From the NCBI GenBank assembly GCA_013286565.1, contig JABDFM010000007.1:1-64000 (forward strand): a stretch of DNA of 64,000 bases. Reading direction: 5' to 3'. A program made the position numbers and the translations under genes. Below the pieces are notes generated by a model. It made no database searches. It was not told the origin of the DNA and saw nothing but the letters and a program-made list of their open reading frames with translations. Within the stretch, counting starts at the first letter, position 1, and every line of letters starts with the position of its first letter. This DNA is from Bacteroidota bacterium (lineage in GTDB: Bacteria; Bacteroidota; Bacteroidia; Sphingobacteriales; Sphingobacteriaceae). Positions 10,299 to 61,361 of the stretch are shown in pieces.

Positions 10299-10405
10299 TG
10301 ATAGTTGATTAAGTTAAGTGGCTGACTGAGTTGATTAAGTTTTTTAAACCAATCAACCCAATCCAACTTATTCAACTCAATCAACTTAATAAACTCCAAA
10401 CTAAT
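10299..10405. repeat. Intergenic inverted word array (word ~ GTTGATTAAGTT)
   Basis: Left AGTTGATTAAGTTAAG..GAGTTGATTAAGTT; right AATCAACCCAATCCAACTTATTCAACTCAATCAACTTAAT. Confidence 0.8.
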
Positions 10406-10408
10406 TAA

Positions 10409-10416
10409 TACCTTTG
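10409..10416 (+). promoter_or_regulatory. Bacteroidota -7 box upstream of fur
   Basis: TACCTTTG matches TAnnTTTG, ~20 nt before the ATG at 10435. Confidence 0.5.
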
Positions 10417-25803: not shown

Positions 25804-25890
25804 CAAATTTAAGGAAAGTTTGCAGTTGGCGGTGGGCAGTTAACAGTTTTCAATCTGATATGCAAACTGCCCACTAAAAACTGCAAACTT
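25804..25890. repeat. Intergenic inverted word array between divergent arfB and cmk (word ~ AAGTTTGCAGTT...GGGCAGTT)
   Basis: Left AAGTTTGCAGTTGGCGGTGGGCAGTTAACA; right TGCAAACTGCCCACTAAAAACTGCAAACTT. Confidence 0.8.
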
Positions 25891-27060: not shown

Positions 27061-27061
27061 T

Positions 27062-27163
27062 TAAATAGTTCATTAGTTCACTTGCTCATTAGTTCATTAG
27101 TAGCAAAGTAACACGCAAATGCCCCAATGAACTAATGAACTATTGAACCAATGAACAAATAGA
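27062..27163. repeat. Intergenic inverted word array (word ~ AGTTCATTAG)
   Basis: TAGTTCATTAGTTCACTTGCTCATTAGTTCATTAG ... CCAATGAACTAATGAACTATTGAACCAATGAAC. Confidence 0.85.
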
Positions 27164-28970: not shown

Positions 28971-29624
28971 ATGATAGAAGCTATAATTAGGGGAATCGGG
29001 ATTGGATTAGTACTCACGTTTTTGACCGGCCCGGTCTTCTTTGCATTGATAAAAACAAGCATCGAAAAAGGCTTTCATGCCGGGGTTGCTATGGCTTTGG
29101 GCGTAGTTACCAGCGATGTGGTGTTTGTAGGTGCCATATTATTCGGTTCCCAGTATTTTGATATCTCCAGCCAGGATAAACAACATGCAGGCGTAATAGG
29201 CTGTATCATCCTTTTTGCTTTGGGCTTTTATTACATCTTCAAAAAATCGGAAGTCAATTATAATAATAAGGTGCCATCCAGGTTGAAGCGCACGGGCTAT
29301 TTTCTGAAAGGCTTCCTGATGTGCATCCTAAATCCTACCCTTTTGTTTCATTGGACAGTGGTGATCGGTACCGCAAGTACCCTGTACATCTACGGCGTGC
29401 CTAACCGGTCTTTAAAAATAGCGGTGATGTTCCTCACCATTCTGATCGTTCAGTTCGGCCTCGATACCACCAAAGCTTTTTACGCCAACAAACTCCGCGA
29501 CCGAATATCTGTTAAATTTGTGCACCGGCTTAATGCGGTTGCAGGCATAGCGCTGATCATAGCCTCTCTGATATTGTTTGATAAGCTGGTTACGCATTAT
29601 GTTTTCGCACGTTTCAGCACATAG
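28971..29624 (+). CDS. LysE family translocator
   Basis: GPVFFALIKTSIEKGFHAGVAMALGVVTSD. Confidence 0.88.
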   Translation: MIEAIIRGIGIGLVLTFLTGPVFFALIKTSIEKGFHAGVAMALGVVTSDVVFVGAILFGSQYFDISSQDKQHAGVIGCIILFALGFYYIFKKSEVNYNNKVPSRLKRTGYFLKGFLMCILNPTLLFHWTVVIGTASTLYIYGVPNRSLKIAVMFLTILIVQFGLDTTKAFYANKLRDRISVKFVHRLNAVAGIALIIASLILFDKLVTHYVFARFST

Positions 29625-29797
29625 TGAGCAGGCAGTAGTGAGTAGTGAATGGGCAGCTGTGAGTGGGTGAATGGTCAATAGTGAGTGGTGAATGAGCAGC
29701 GGTAAGAAGTGGTAGCGAATAGGCAGCCGTGAGTGGTGAATAGGTTATATGACTATTGACTACTCACCACTCACTATTAACTACTCACTACTCACCA
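29625..29797. repeat. Intergenic inverted word array filling the convergent gap (word ~ AGTGAGTAGTGAATGGGCAG)
   Basis: Many drifting copies of GTGAGTGGTGAAT/GTGAGTAGTGAAT, opposed by ACTATTGACTACTCACCACTCACTATTAACTACTCACTACTCACC. Confidence 0.9.
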
Positions 29798-32071: not shown

Positions 32072-33138
32072 ACTTTTATCTTAAATACTTTGCTATCGCG
32101 ATTGGCCTGTTTGCTTTTTCAGGCTTGTTCACCCTGTTTGGCGTTTATGCTGAGCGCAAAGTATCCGCCTTTATACAGGACAGGCTTGGCCCCACAGAAA
32201 CGGGCAAATACGGCACGCTTCAAACTATCGCGGATGTATTAAAGCTGATAACCAAGGAGTTGATCATACCTGCAGCGGCTGATAAATTACTGTTTATGCT
32301 GGCCCCTGCGATCATTTTCATTGCGGTGTTTATGGGCTTTGCCGCCATACCCTGGGCACCGGGTATAGCACCCTCAAACCTGAACTTAGGTTTGTATTAC
32401 ATTTTTGCCATCCTGTCGATAGAAACCCTGGGTATTTTAATGGCAGGCTGGGGATCAAATAATAAGTATTCCATATTGGGTGCCATGCGTTCGGCAGCGC
32501 AGATCATATCTTACGAGATACCTGCCGGGTTCGCTATTATCTCGGTAGTGATGATCGCTCAAACGCTTAACCTGCAAACCATATCGGCCCAGCAGGGAAT
32601 ATTATCTTCAGAAAACACCAAGTTCCTGGGGATATGGGATGTTACTGCAAATGGCGGTATCCTGGCCTGGAATATTTTCAGGGCGCCGCATTTGATCATC
32701 GCTTTTGTGATCTATTTTATCGCATCACTGGCCGAAAGTAACCGGGCCCCATTTGATATACCGGAAGCTGAATCAGAGTTGGTTTCCGGCTTTCATACCG
32801 AATATACAGGCATGCGGTTCGCCTTTGTATTTTTGGCCGAATATTCGATGATGTTCCTGGTATCCACGGTTGGAGTGATCTTGTTTTTAGGCGCCTGGAA
32901 CACGCCGTTGCCAAATATCGGCCCGGTACATTTAGCCGACTGGACAACCGGCGCTGCCTGGGGGGTACTCTGGACCATCATAAAAGTGCTGTTACTGGTT
33001 GGCGTACAAATGTGGATCCGCTGGACCCTCCCCCGTTTGCGGGTGGACCAGCTAATGAATTTATGCTGGAAGATATTAACACCCCTGGCATTTATATGTA
33101 TGCTAATATCAGGAATATGGCGGTTGTGGATGATGTAG
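32068..33138 (+). CDS. nuoH: NADH-quinone oxidoreductase subunit H
   Basis: ERKVSAFIQDRLGPTETG, AESNRAPFDIPEAESELVSGFHTEYTGMRFA; TTG start. Confidence 0.95.
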   Translation: MNFYLKYFAIAIGLFAFSGLFTLFGVYAERKVSAFIQDRLGPTETGKYGTLQTIADVLKLITKELIIPAAADKLLFMLAPAIIFIAVFMGFAAIPWAPGIAPSNLNLGLYYIFAILSIETLGILMAGWGSNNKYSILGAMRSAAQIISYEIPAGFAIISVVMIAQTLNLQTISAQQGILSSENTKFLGIWDVTANGGILAWNIFRAPHLIIAFVIYFIASLAESNRAPFDIPEAESELVSGFHTEYTGMRFAFVFLAEYSMMFLVSTVGVILFLGAWNTPLPNIGPVHLADWTTGAAWGVLWTIIKVLLLVGVQMWIRWTLPRLRVDQLMNLCWKILTPLAFICMLISGIWRLWMM

Positions 33139-33245
33139 GTTAGAGATTGGAGAATAGAGATTAGTTAATTAGGTGGGATTGGTTGGTTAATGGTTGAATT
33201 GAGAAAATATAATCATGGAAATCATTTAATCATATAAATCAAGGT
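33139..33245. repeat. Word-array-like intergenic segment between nuoH and nuoI (words AGAGATTAG / GGTTGGTTAATGGTTG / AATCAT)
   Basis: GTTAGAGATTGGAGAATAGAGATTAGTTAATTAGG...; shares AGAGATTAGTT with the 60.2 kb array. Confidence 0.6.
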
Positions 33246-59027: not shown

Positions 59028-59168
59028 TGGGGCAAAGATAGCGTGAATTGTTGTAATGTTGGAAGGTTGTAAAGTTGAAAGGTTTGTATAAACACATGTT
59101 GTGACGCGGGTAGTTGGGATTTGGGATTATTATTTTGAAAATTGTAGTTTTAGGAAAACTTTAATGTA

Positions 59169-59623: not shown

Positions 59624-60112
59624 TCACTTCGCTAACGCCAGCAACCCATGCACATCCAATGCTTTGGTAAACATGGTCAAGTCGCCGTTATCATCTAATG
59701 GCCATTGGTCTTTGGGCCTGTCCCAATACAGTTCAACGCCATTACCATCCGGGTCATCCAAGTAAATTGCTTCTGATACGCCATGATCGGATGCGCCGGT
59801 GATGGGATATTTGGCGTCGATGAGTCGTTTTAAGATAATAGCAAGGTCTTTGCGTTCAGGATATAGAATAGCTGTATGATATAATCCAGGAGCAGTTTCG
59901 GGTGCTGGTGGCTGACCCTTACTGTGCCAGGTGTTCAACCCGATATGATGGTGGTATCCCCCTGCTGATATAAAAGCAGCCTGGTCGCCATACTTCATCA
60001 TCAATTCAAAACCGAGCAAGCCGCAATAAAAATCAAGTGATTTTTGCAGATCACTTACCTTTAAATGAACGTGACCGATGCGGGTATTTGCCGGTACTTT
60101 GTAATCTTCCAT
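59624..60112 (-). CDS. VOC family protein, catechol 2,3-dioxygenase-like
   Basis: GHVHLKVSDLQKSLDFYCGLLGFE, DPDGNGVELYWDRP. Confidence 0.9.
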   Translation of the reverse strand: MEDYKVPANTRIGHVHLKVSDLQKSLDFYCGLLGFELMMKYGDQAAFISAGGYHHHIGLNTWHSKGQPPAPETAPGLYHTAILYPERKDLAIILKRLIDAKYPITGASDHGVSEAIYLDDPDGNGVELYWDRPKDQWPLDDNGDLTMFTKALDVHGLLALAK

Positions 60113-60130
60113 AATAATATATGTTTAAAC

Positions 60131-60257
60131 ATCAAAGATAGCGATTAGAGATTAGTAAATTAGCGATTAGGCAATACAGTTACAATGAAATGATATTACT
60201 CCAAAAGTACGCCCCAAACTAATCTCCAATCAACTAATCTCTAATCACTATCTTTGC
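60131..60257. repeat. Inverted word array mirroring two divergent promoters (word ~ GATTAGAGATTAG)
   Basis: CAAAGATAGCGATTAGAGATTAGT (60133-60156) vs reverse complement of 60233-60256 CAAAGATAGTGATTAGAGATTAGT; both ends carry TATCTTTG. Confidence 0.88.
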
Positions 60258-60260
60258 AGC

Positions 60261-60902
60261 ATGATTGTAAAATCTGCCGAATTCATTTGCAGCAACACCC
60301 AGATATCCAAACTACCGCCACCGGTAAAGCCCGAATATGCTTTTATTGGTCGGTCAAATGTAGGGAAATCATCCCTCATCAATATGCTGACAGGCAAAAA
60401 GGGGTTAGCCAAAACTTCGCAAACGCCAGGTAAAACACAGCTGATCAACCATTTTTTGATCAACGATAGCTGGTATATCGTCGATTTGCCTGGTTACGGT
60501 TACGCCAAAATATCAAAGAGCAAAAAGGAAGACTGGAACAAATTTATCCGCAGCTACCTGGATAAGCGCGAAAGCCTGCAATGTGTGATGGCGCTGATCG
60601 ACAGCCGCCTTGAACCACAAAAGATCGACCTGGAGTTTTGCAATTGGCTGGGCGAAAAAGGGCTGCCATTTGTACTGGTTTTCACCAAAACGGACAAACA
60701 ATCAACCGTAAAAACTGATCAGAATGTTGCTAAGTTTAAAAAGGCATTATTAGCTACCTTTGATGAAGTACCCGATTGCTTTTTCACTTCAGCAGAAACG
60801 CAACTGGGGCATGACGAAGTTTTAAATTTTATTGATGGAATAAACAGGAAGTTTGAAGTGCCTGAATGGGTTTCCCCTCTCGAGAGGGGCAGGGGTGTGT
60901 AA
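60261..60902 (+). CDS. engB: Ribosome biogenesis GTPase EngB/YihA
   Basis: FIGRSNVGKSSLINML, DLPGYGYAK, TKTDK; C-terminus SPLERGRGV is encoded by the inverted repeat. Confidence 0.94.
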   Translation: MIVKSAEFICSNTQISKLPPPVKPEYAFIGRSNVGKSSLINMLTGKKGLAKTSQTPGKTQLINHFLINDSWYIVDLPGYGYAKISKSKKEDWNKFIRSYLDKRESLQCVMALIDSRLEPQKIDLEFCNWLGEKGLPFVLVFTKTDKQSTVKTDQNVAKFKKALLATFDEVPDCFFTSAETQLGHDEVLNFIDGINRKFEVPEWVSPLERGRGV

Positions 60903-61361
60903 TTAATGAAGCGAAAAATCATACCGTACAACCCTAAGCTAAAAGAATTAGCGCGTAAACTAAGAAACGACAGTACGTTAGGCGAGGTTTTACTTTGGAA
61001 GGAATTAAACAATAAAAAAATGTATGGCTATGATTTTCACCGTCAAAAGCCATTATTGAATTATATTGTAGATCTCTATTGCTATGAATTAAATTTAGTT
61101 ATTGAGATAGATGGACAATATCATACTCATGAAGAAACCTACAAACTGGATTTATTGAGAGAACAAGAACTTGAAAAATACAATTTAACCATTATGCGTT
61201 TTACGGAACAGGAGGTCAGAAAGGATATGGTGAATGTGTTAAGAACAATTGAAACGTATATATTGAAACAGGAAGCTTCTCAAGAGTAAACTTTATAACA
61301 AGAGATCGTAATATTTAATAGCATATTGTAGAACACACCCCTACCCCTCTCGAGAGGGGAA
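60872..61361 (+). mobile_element. DUF559 nuclease gene bracketed by 29-nt inverted repeats (490 bp)
   Basis: IR-L 60872-60900 TTCCCCTCTCGAGAGGGGCAGGGGTGTGT; IR-R 61333-61361 reverse complement TTCCCCTCTCGAGAGGGGTAGGGGTGTGT (1 mismatch). Confidence 0.75.
60906..61289 (+). CDS. DUF559 endonuclease-domain protein (Vsr/PD-(D/E)XK-like)
   Basis: ARKLRNDSTLGEVLLWKELNNKKMYGYDFHRQKPLLNYIVDLYCYELNLVIEIDGQYH. Confidence 0.9.
   Translation: MKRKIIPYNPKLKELARKLRNDSTLGEVLLWKELNNKKMYGYDFHRQKPLLNYIVDLYCYELNLVIEIDGQYHTHEETYKLDLLREQELEKYNLTIMRFTEQEVRKDMVNVLRTIETYILKQEASQE

Follow-up and report, generated by a model that had tools for sequence, protein, structure and literature searches.

The divergent genes for engB and a VOC-superfamily protein are separated by an inverted repeat with a match to the Bacteroidota -7 promoter box, TAnnTTTG (PMC6847099, PMC9723704), at each outer end, which raises the question of whether the repeat gave rise to the promoters or came to lie between promoters that were already present. 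The initial annotation of the window, which is the whole stretch of 64,000 nucleotides that was analyzed, proposed that an inverted duplication had created or homogenised the promoter pair. The arrangement itself holds as described there, in sequence, in coordinates and in the divergent starts (60112 on the minus strand, 60261 on the plus strand). Read directly, positions 60133-60156 are CAAAGATAGCGATTAGAGATTAGT and the reverse complement of 60233-60256 is CAAAGATAGTGATTAGAGATTAGT, with one mismatch in 24 nt, at 60142 (C). By repeat search, the arms extend to 38 nt each (60133-60170 and 60219-60256), are 87% complementary and enclose a 48-nt loop. The outer 8-mer of each arm, read from 60140 to 60133 on the minus strand and from 60249 to 60256 on the plus strand, is TATCTTTG and fits TAnnTTTG.

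The inverted-repeat score of the 148-nt spacer is 25.5, whereas the best of 1,500 dinucleotide shuffles reaches 13 (0/1,500 match it), and the spacer folded as single-stranded DNA gives z = -6.2. For the rest of the source genome, the analysis covered a 464-kb sample together with targeted searches. An inverted repeat with a score of at least 13 is found in 47 of the 208 intergenic gaps of the sample, versus 2 gaps after shuffling (three shuffles per gap), and that between VOC and engB is the third strongest. Word arrays with a period of 7-8 nt occur 16 times in intergenic and twice in coding sequence, and 0 times in shuffled sequence. Given a score far above the shuffles and the many similar gaps, the inverted repeat is real and part of a genome-wide class. 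The spacer has no match in Rfam at gathering score; all hits are sub-threshold, and the one to MIR2630 (34.2 of 144 bits) was dropped as a by-product of the hairpin.

Features of the VOC-engB locus, in window positions
Feature	Positions	Strand	Basis
VOC/glyoxalase-superfamily gene, divergent from engB	59624..60112	-	ORF; PF00903 E=2.9e-16 (Pfam)
ATGTTTAAACAT palindrome beside the VOC promoter, spanning the predicted VOC TSS (60128); candidate operator	60121..60132	.	kept in most VOC spacers of the genus; operator role putative
VOC -7 box TATCTTTG (relatives: TAAATTTG); letters 60137-60138 derived	60133..60140	-	Bacteroidota consensus (PMC6847099, PMC9723704)
Left word-array arm GCGATTAGAGATTAGTAAATTAGCGATTAG, 3 mismatches to the dispersed 30-nt unit	60141..60170	+	comparison with dispersed copies
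Loop; aligns with that of the orthologous G130 inverted repeat	60171..60218	.	
Right word-array arm, minus strand GTGATTAGAGATTAGTTGATTGGAGATTAG, 2 mismatches to the dispersed unit	60219..60248	-	
engB -7 box TATCTTTG; predicted TSS 60261, the A of ATG (leaderless)	60249..60256	+	position in relatives; -12..-5 placement (PMC9723704)
engB/ysxC, ribosome-biogenesis GTPase	60261..60902	+	TIGR03598 E=3e-66, above cutoff (NCBIfam)

Matches to the VOC protein at E<=1e-60 are found in 139 of 150 genomes of the genus. The 3' end of engB (window 60870-60902) enters a dispersed repeat, CCCCTCTCGAGAGGGG, that is also found between 58019 and 58295; the C-terminal tail that it encodes, SPLERGRGV, extends past the region matched in most relatives. 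An ORF of the DUF559 family, which has an endonuclease-like fold, follows directly after engB (window 60906-61289).

The age of the promoters was assessed with 95 Mucilaginibacter genomes that have the divergent VOC-engB pair. The engB box is kept in 90 of these, 4 nt before the ATG in 85 and 5 nt before it in 5, with TACC (70 genomes) and TATC (12) as its main variants. The VOC box is TAAATTTG in 54 of the 60 genomes where it is readable, and abuts the ATGTTTAAACAT palindrome. Both boxes lie at the same positions with or without an array, and both persist where the spacer has no array and measures 51-57 nt, as in G138, the sister of the window in the tree (SH-aLRT 87). The promoters therefore do not owe their origin to the inverted repeat, and that part of the proposal is refuted. 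The same comparison shows that the position of the VOC box predates the array; it also shows identical VOC and engB boxes in the window only, so that equally similar promoters were not found in the array-free relatives.

The -7 box of the Bacteroidota sigma-A promoter is thus present at both genes. Upstream of engB, there is no conserved TTG at the offset expected for the -33 TTTG, in genomes with an array or in those free of it, and the -33 element may be dispensable at this promoter. The engB box, the following C and the A residues at -17/-18 are retained whether or not the array is present. In Flavobacterium psychrophilum the box is placed at -12..-5 (PMC9723704), and by analogy engB would be leaderless. 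The ATGTTTAAACAT palindrome is conserved in the genus beside the VOC promoter, yet the copy at 60121-60132 is the sole site in the 3.2-Mb assembly, which makes it a candidate operator with one target.

Whether the boxes were homogenised is a narrower matter than their resemblance implies. Six of the eight letters of the box mirror each other in any divergent TAnnTTTG pair, and the 16 array letters belong to a genome-wide repeat, so the information in the matching boxes comes down to two letters (60137-60138). At these adjacent positions the VOC box of the window has undergone a lineage-specific change from AA to TC (CAAATTTA to CAAAGATA on the plus strand), and it alone among the 60 readable VOC promoters reads TATC. 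Relatives G130, G160, G162 and G164 have the orthologous inverted repeat, yet in each VOC TAAATTTG stands beside engB TACCTTTG or TAACTTTG (TACC or TAAC). The letters TC are found in 6 of 75 upstream boxes and in 3 of 15 near-leaderless boxes, and from such counts identity of the two boxes would be expected by chance at about 10%. Given that the second n is C in nearly all engB boxes, treating nn as random understates the coincidence.

One account of the change is a quasipalindrome template switch in which the VOC arm was copied from the engB arm, such that VOC TAAATTTG became TATCTTTG and an engB-type box was transferred. Template switching evens out the arms of inverted repeats in tracts of a few bases and yields multinucleotide changes (PMC8604942), and the double adjacent substitution, unique to the window among the 60 readable relatives, both makes the boxes identical and makes the inverted repeat more perfect. 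However, the neighboring 30 nt have no shared derived change, the arms still disagree at the next informative site (60142), which is 4 nt away from the two changed letters, and a single event must be set against a chance identity of about one in ten. In addition, the promoter of ubiE, at a distance of 1.1 kb, contains CAAAGATAGCG (59035-59045), which would be an equally good donor. Templated homogenisation is therefore considered unlikely. What survives of the claim is that only the window has identical boxes, by a 2-nt change that perfects the repeat; what does not is homogenisation of the adjacent array from arm to arm. The likeness to quasipalindrome mutations (PMC8604942, PMC7202029) lies in the evening out of arms by a few bases, but these describe a mutational process rather than an element, and the locus offers one 2-nt candidate event.

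The two arms differ at 5 of 30 sites, which are exactly the 3 private differences of the left arm and the 2 of the right arm from the dispersed consensus, and these private differences rule out arm-to-arm conversion within the array. Inversion of the spacer by a template switch is likewise ruled out, as the loop aligns in direct orientation with that of G130. It seems very doubtful that, across the genus, boundary word arrays act as templates that copy a promoter box onto the divergent neighbor and so rewrite promoter strength, with the window as one completed transfer (VOC TAAATTTG to TATCTTTG).

Three smaller observations touch on these arms. The CAAAGATAGCG site of ubiE is an 11-nt identity to the VOC box and the start of the left arm, and has a GTTGTAA array upstream. 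Between the near-identical spacers L056 and L058 (from G164 and G160), there are about 12 substitutions, and these cluster within 18 nt of the left arm. Two consecutive words in G164 are GATTTT where G130 reads GATTAG.

The arms are copies of a dispersed 30-nt repeat with the consensus GTGATTAGAGATTAGTTAATTAGAGATTAG, built of 7- and 8-nt words. Elsewhere in the genome, nine copies match the right arm with no more than 3 mismatches. One of these has a single mismatch, so that the right arm resembles an unlinked locus more than it does the arm it faces. At up to 2 mismatches, 27 of 69 Mucilaginibacter genomes contain GTGATTAGAGATTAGTTAATTAGAGATTAG, as opposed to 0 of 232 genomes from 24 other genera of the family; within this family sample, the repeat is specific to Mucilaginibacter.

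Placement of the repeat follows a rule. The 5' end lies within -8..+12 nt of a gene boundary in 41 of 46 copies, with boundaries taken from crude calls (codon-score ORFs) that may leave single distances off. Some copies follow directly on a stop codon of the same strand, whose TAG they often overlap, and others lie immediately before a start on the opposite strand; the commonest distance on the promoter side is 12 nt, or 4 nt plus the 8-nt box. Three word families were tested, with the words GATTAG, GTTGTAA and GTTCATT. For GTTGTAA, 19 arrays hug a boundary with the 5' end only and 1 with the 3' end only, and for GTTCATT the counts are 19 and 0. Arrays therefore mostly sit with the 5' end at a gene boundary and point away from it, so that a spacer forms an inverted repeat whenever both of its ends carry a copy. 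A G-left/C-right polarity holds for the three word-array families tested, but does not extend to intergenic inverted repeats in general (26 versus 14, with 7 ties).

More intergenic word arrays that hug gene ends are found in the window at 27061-27160, 29620-29795, 10306-10410, 25816-25890, 33138-33164 and 59044-59084. Several of these are inverted pairs made of other words: GTTCATTA, TAGTGAG, GTTGATTAAG, GTTTGCAGTTGGC and GTTGTAA.

Relatives also bear on how the paired arms arose. In 19 of the 22 spacers that have two arms, both arms belong to one word family, which lends some support to inverted duplication as a general origin of the pairs. For the GTTGTAA family, changes of the left arm on the tree go along with changes of the right arm (about 6:0 independent pairs, p about 0.03). 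The engB-side (right) arm stands alone in up to 14 spacers, an upper bound given that the counter of left-arm words did not register the left arms of G160/G162/G164, which are degenerate, and through its thresholds may have passed over others. Being solitary in several lineages, the engB-side arm may be the older of the two at this locus. Array-free spacers of 52-56 nt in G138, G121 and G030 fall within the same clade of 13 genomes, so arrays come and go.

A single inserted inverted-repeat element, MITE-like or REP-like, could in principle have entered between the two boxes, and it would fit with arms that are dispersed and common to other loci, with the TA at both outer ends and with the existence of short array-free spacers. 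Rather than a common loop, however, the other loci have unrelated loops of different lengths, and no consistent target-site duplication was found by eye. The native ATGTTTAAACAT palindrome lies between the arms in many relatives (G156, G072, G074, G027, G021, G069 and others), so the pair is not one inserted cassette, and solitary engB-side arms are common. A mobile cassette was rejected on the loops and on the palindrome inside the arms, and insertion of one element of any such kind is judged highly improbable. Instead, the second arm was probably copied in inverted orientation from the first by template switching, or the pairing was selected.

Selection for pairing would be expected if the arms formed a functional DNA hairpin or cruciform that insulates the divergent promoters. 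Arms matched by family, the folding score of the single-stranded spacer (z = -6.2) and the location of arms at gene boundaries throughout the genus are consistent with such an insulator. Yet the structure is absent or lost in G138, G121 and G030 of the same clade, the right arm can stand alone (in up to 14 spacers), and the sequence turns over between species, all of which make the insulator quite unlikely.

The locus is best explained by two old divergent promoters, with a TA-YC-TTTG box 4 nt before the ATG of engB and a TAnnTTTG box beside ATGTTTAAACAT for VOC, that enclose two facing copies of the Mucilaginibacter-specific repeat GTGATTAGAGATTAGTTAATTAGAGATTAG. The arrays would have taken the place of DNA upstream of the -7 boxes and left the boxes, the A-tract and the start codon undisturbed. 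If the TSSs are at the consensus positions, 5 nt after the boxes, then neither the engB nor the VOC mRNA would contain the arrays. The identical nn letters would go back to two letters of the VOC box that changed later and in the window only, whether by chance drift or by a very short templated correction. It is probable that the inverted repeat represents two facing copies set against pre-existing promoters, as a tolerated repeat that spaces them with no regulatory role shown. Most likely, the array has no such role here beyond holding the promoters about 108 bp apart. Persistence across the genus, strict polarity and family-matched arms could nonetheless reflect a selected function.

Several known repeats resemble these arrays. 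The G-rich heptamer repeats of Xanthomonas and Nostoc, of the GGGAATC type, are mostly intergenic, lie nearer to the 5' ORF and often form convergent pairs (PMC4692102), and the Mucilaginibacter arrays are placed in the same way. Both have heterogeneous 7-nt words, convergent sets that form inverted repeats and turnover between close species (PMC4692102). Unlike those repeats, the Mucilaginibacter words lack GGG tracts, mix 7 and 8 nt and fall into several families per genome; GATTAG, GTTGTAA and GTTCATT do not correspond to GGGANTN or GGGGA(T/C)T. By this analogy, the arrays would work like the Xanthomonas and Nostoc heptamer repeats, the closest kind described, but are not of that family. 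The TAACTGA intergenic direct repeats of Beggiatoaceae, Cyanobacteria and some Bacteroidetes also are heptamer arrays near start codons that vary in presence among close relatives (PMC4679880), but these have a different word, a single inverted case in the genome studied there and a proposed role in translation. REP, BIME and REPIN sequences (PMC3733652, PMC3116915) are likewise dispersed extragenic repeats of 20-40 bp, often in inverted pairs; the Mucilaginibacter unit, in contrast, is a word array that is itself no palindrome.

The boundary and polarity rule for several word families extends the Xanthomonas and Nostoc pattern to Bacteroidota. It also means that a striking mirrored promoter is possible without duplication of a promoter: divergent -7 boxes mirror each other by nature, and polar boundary repeats do so by placement. 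Copying of arms by template switching becomes testable with strains sampled at the population level. Among the relatives searched for GTTCATT word arrays, G015 has 67 matches, including long direct arrays and inverted clusters, versus 0-14 in the others.
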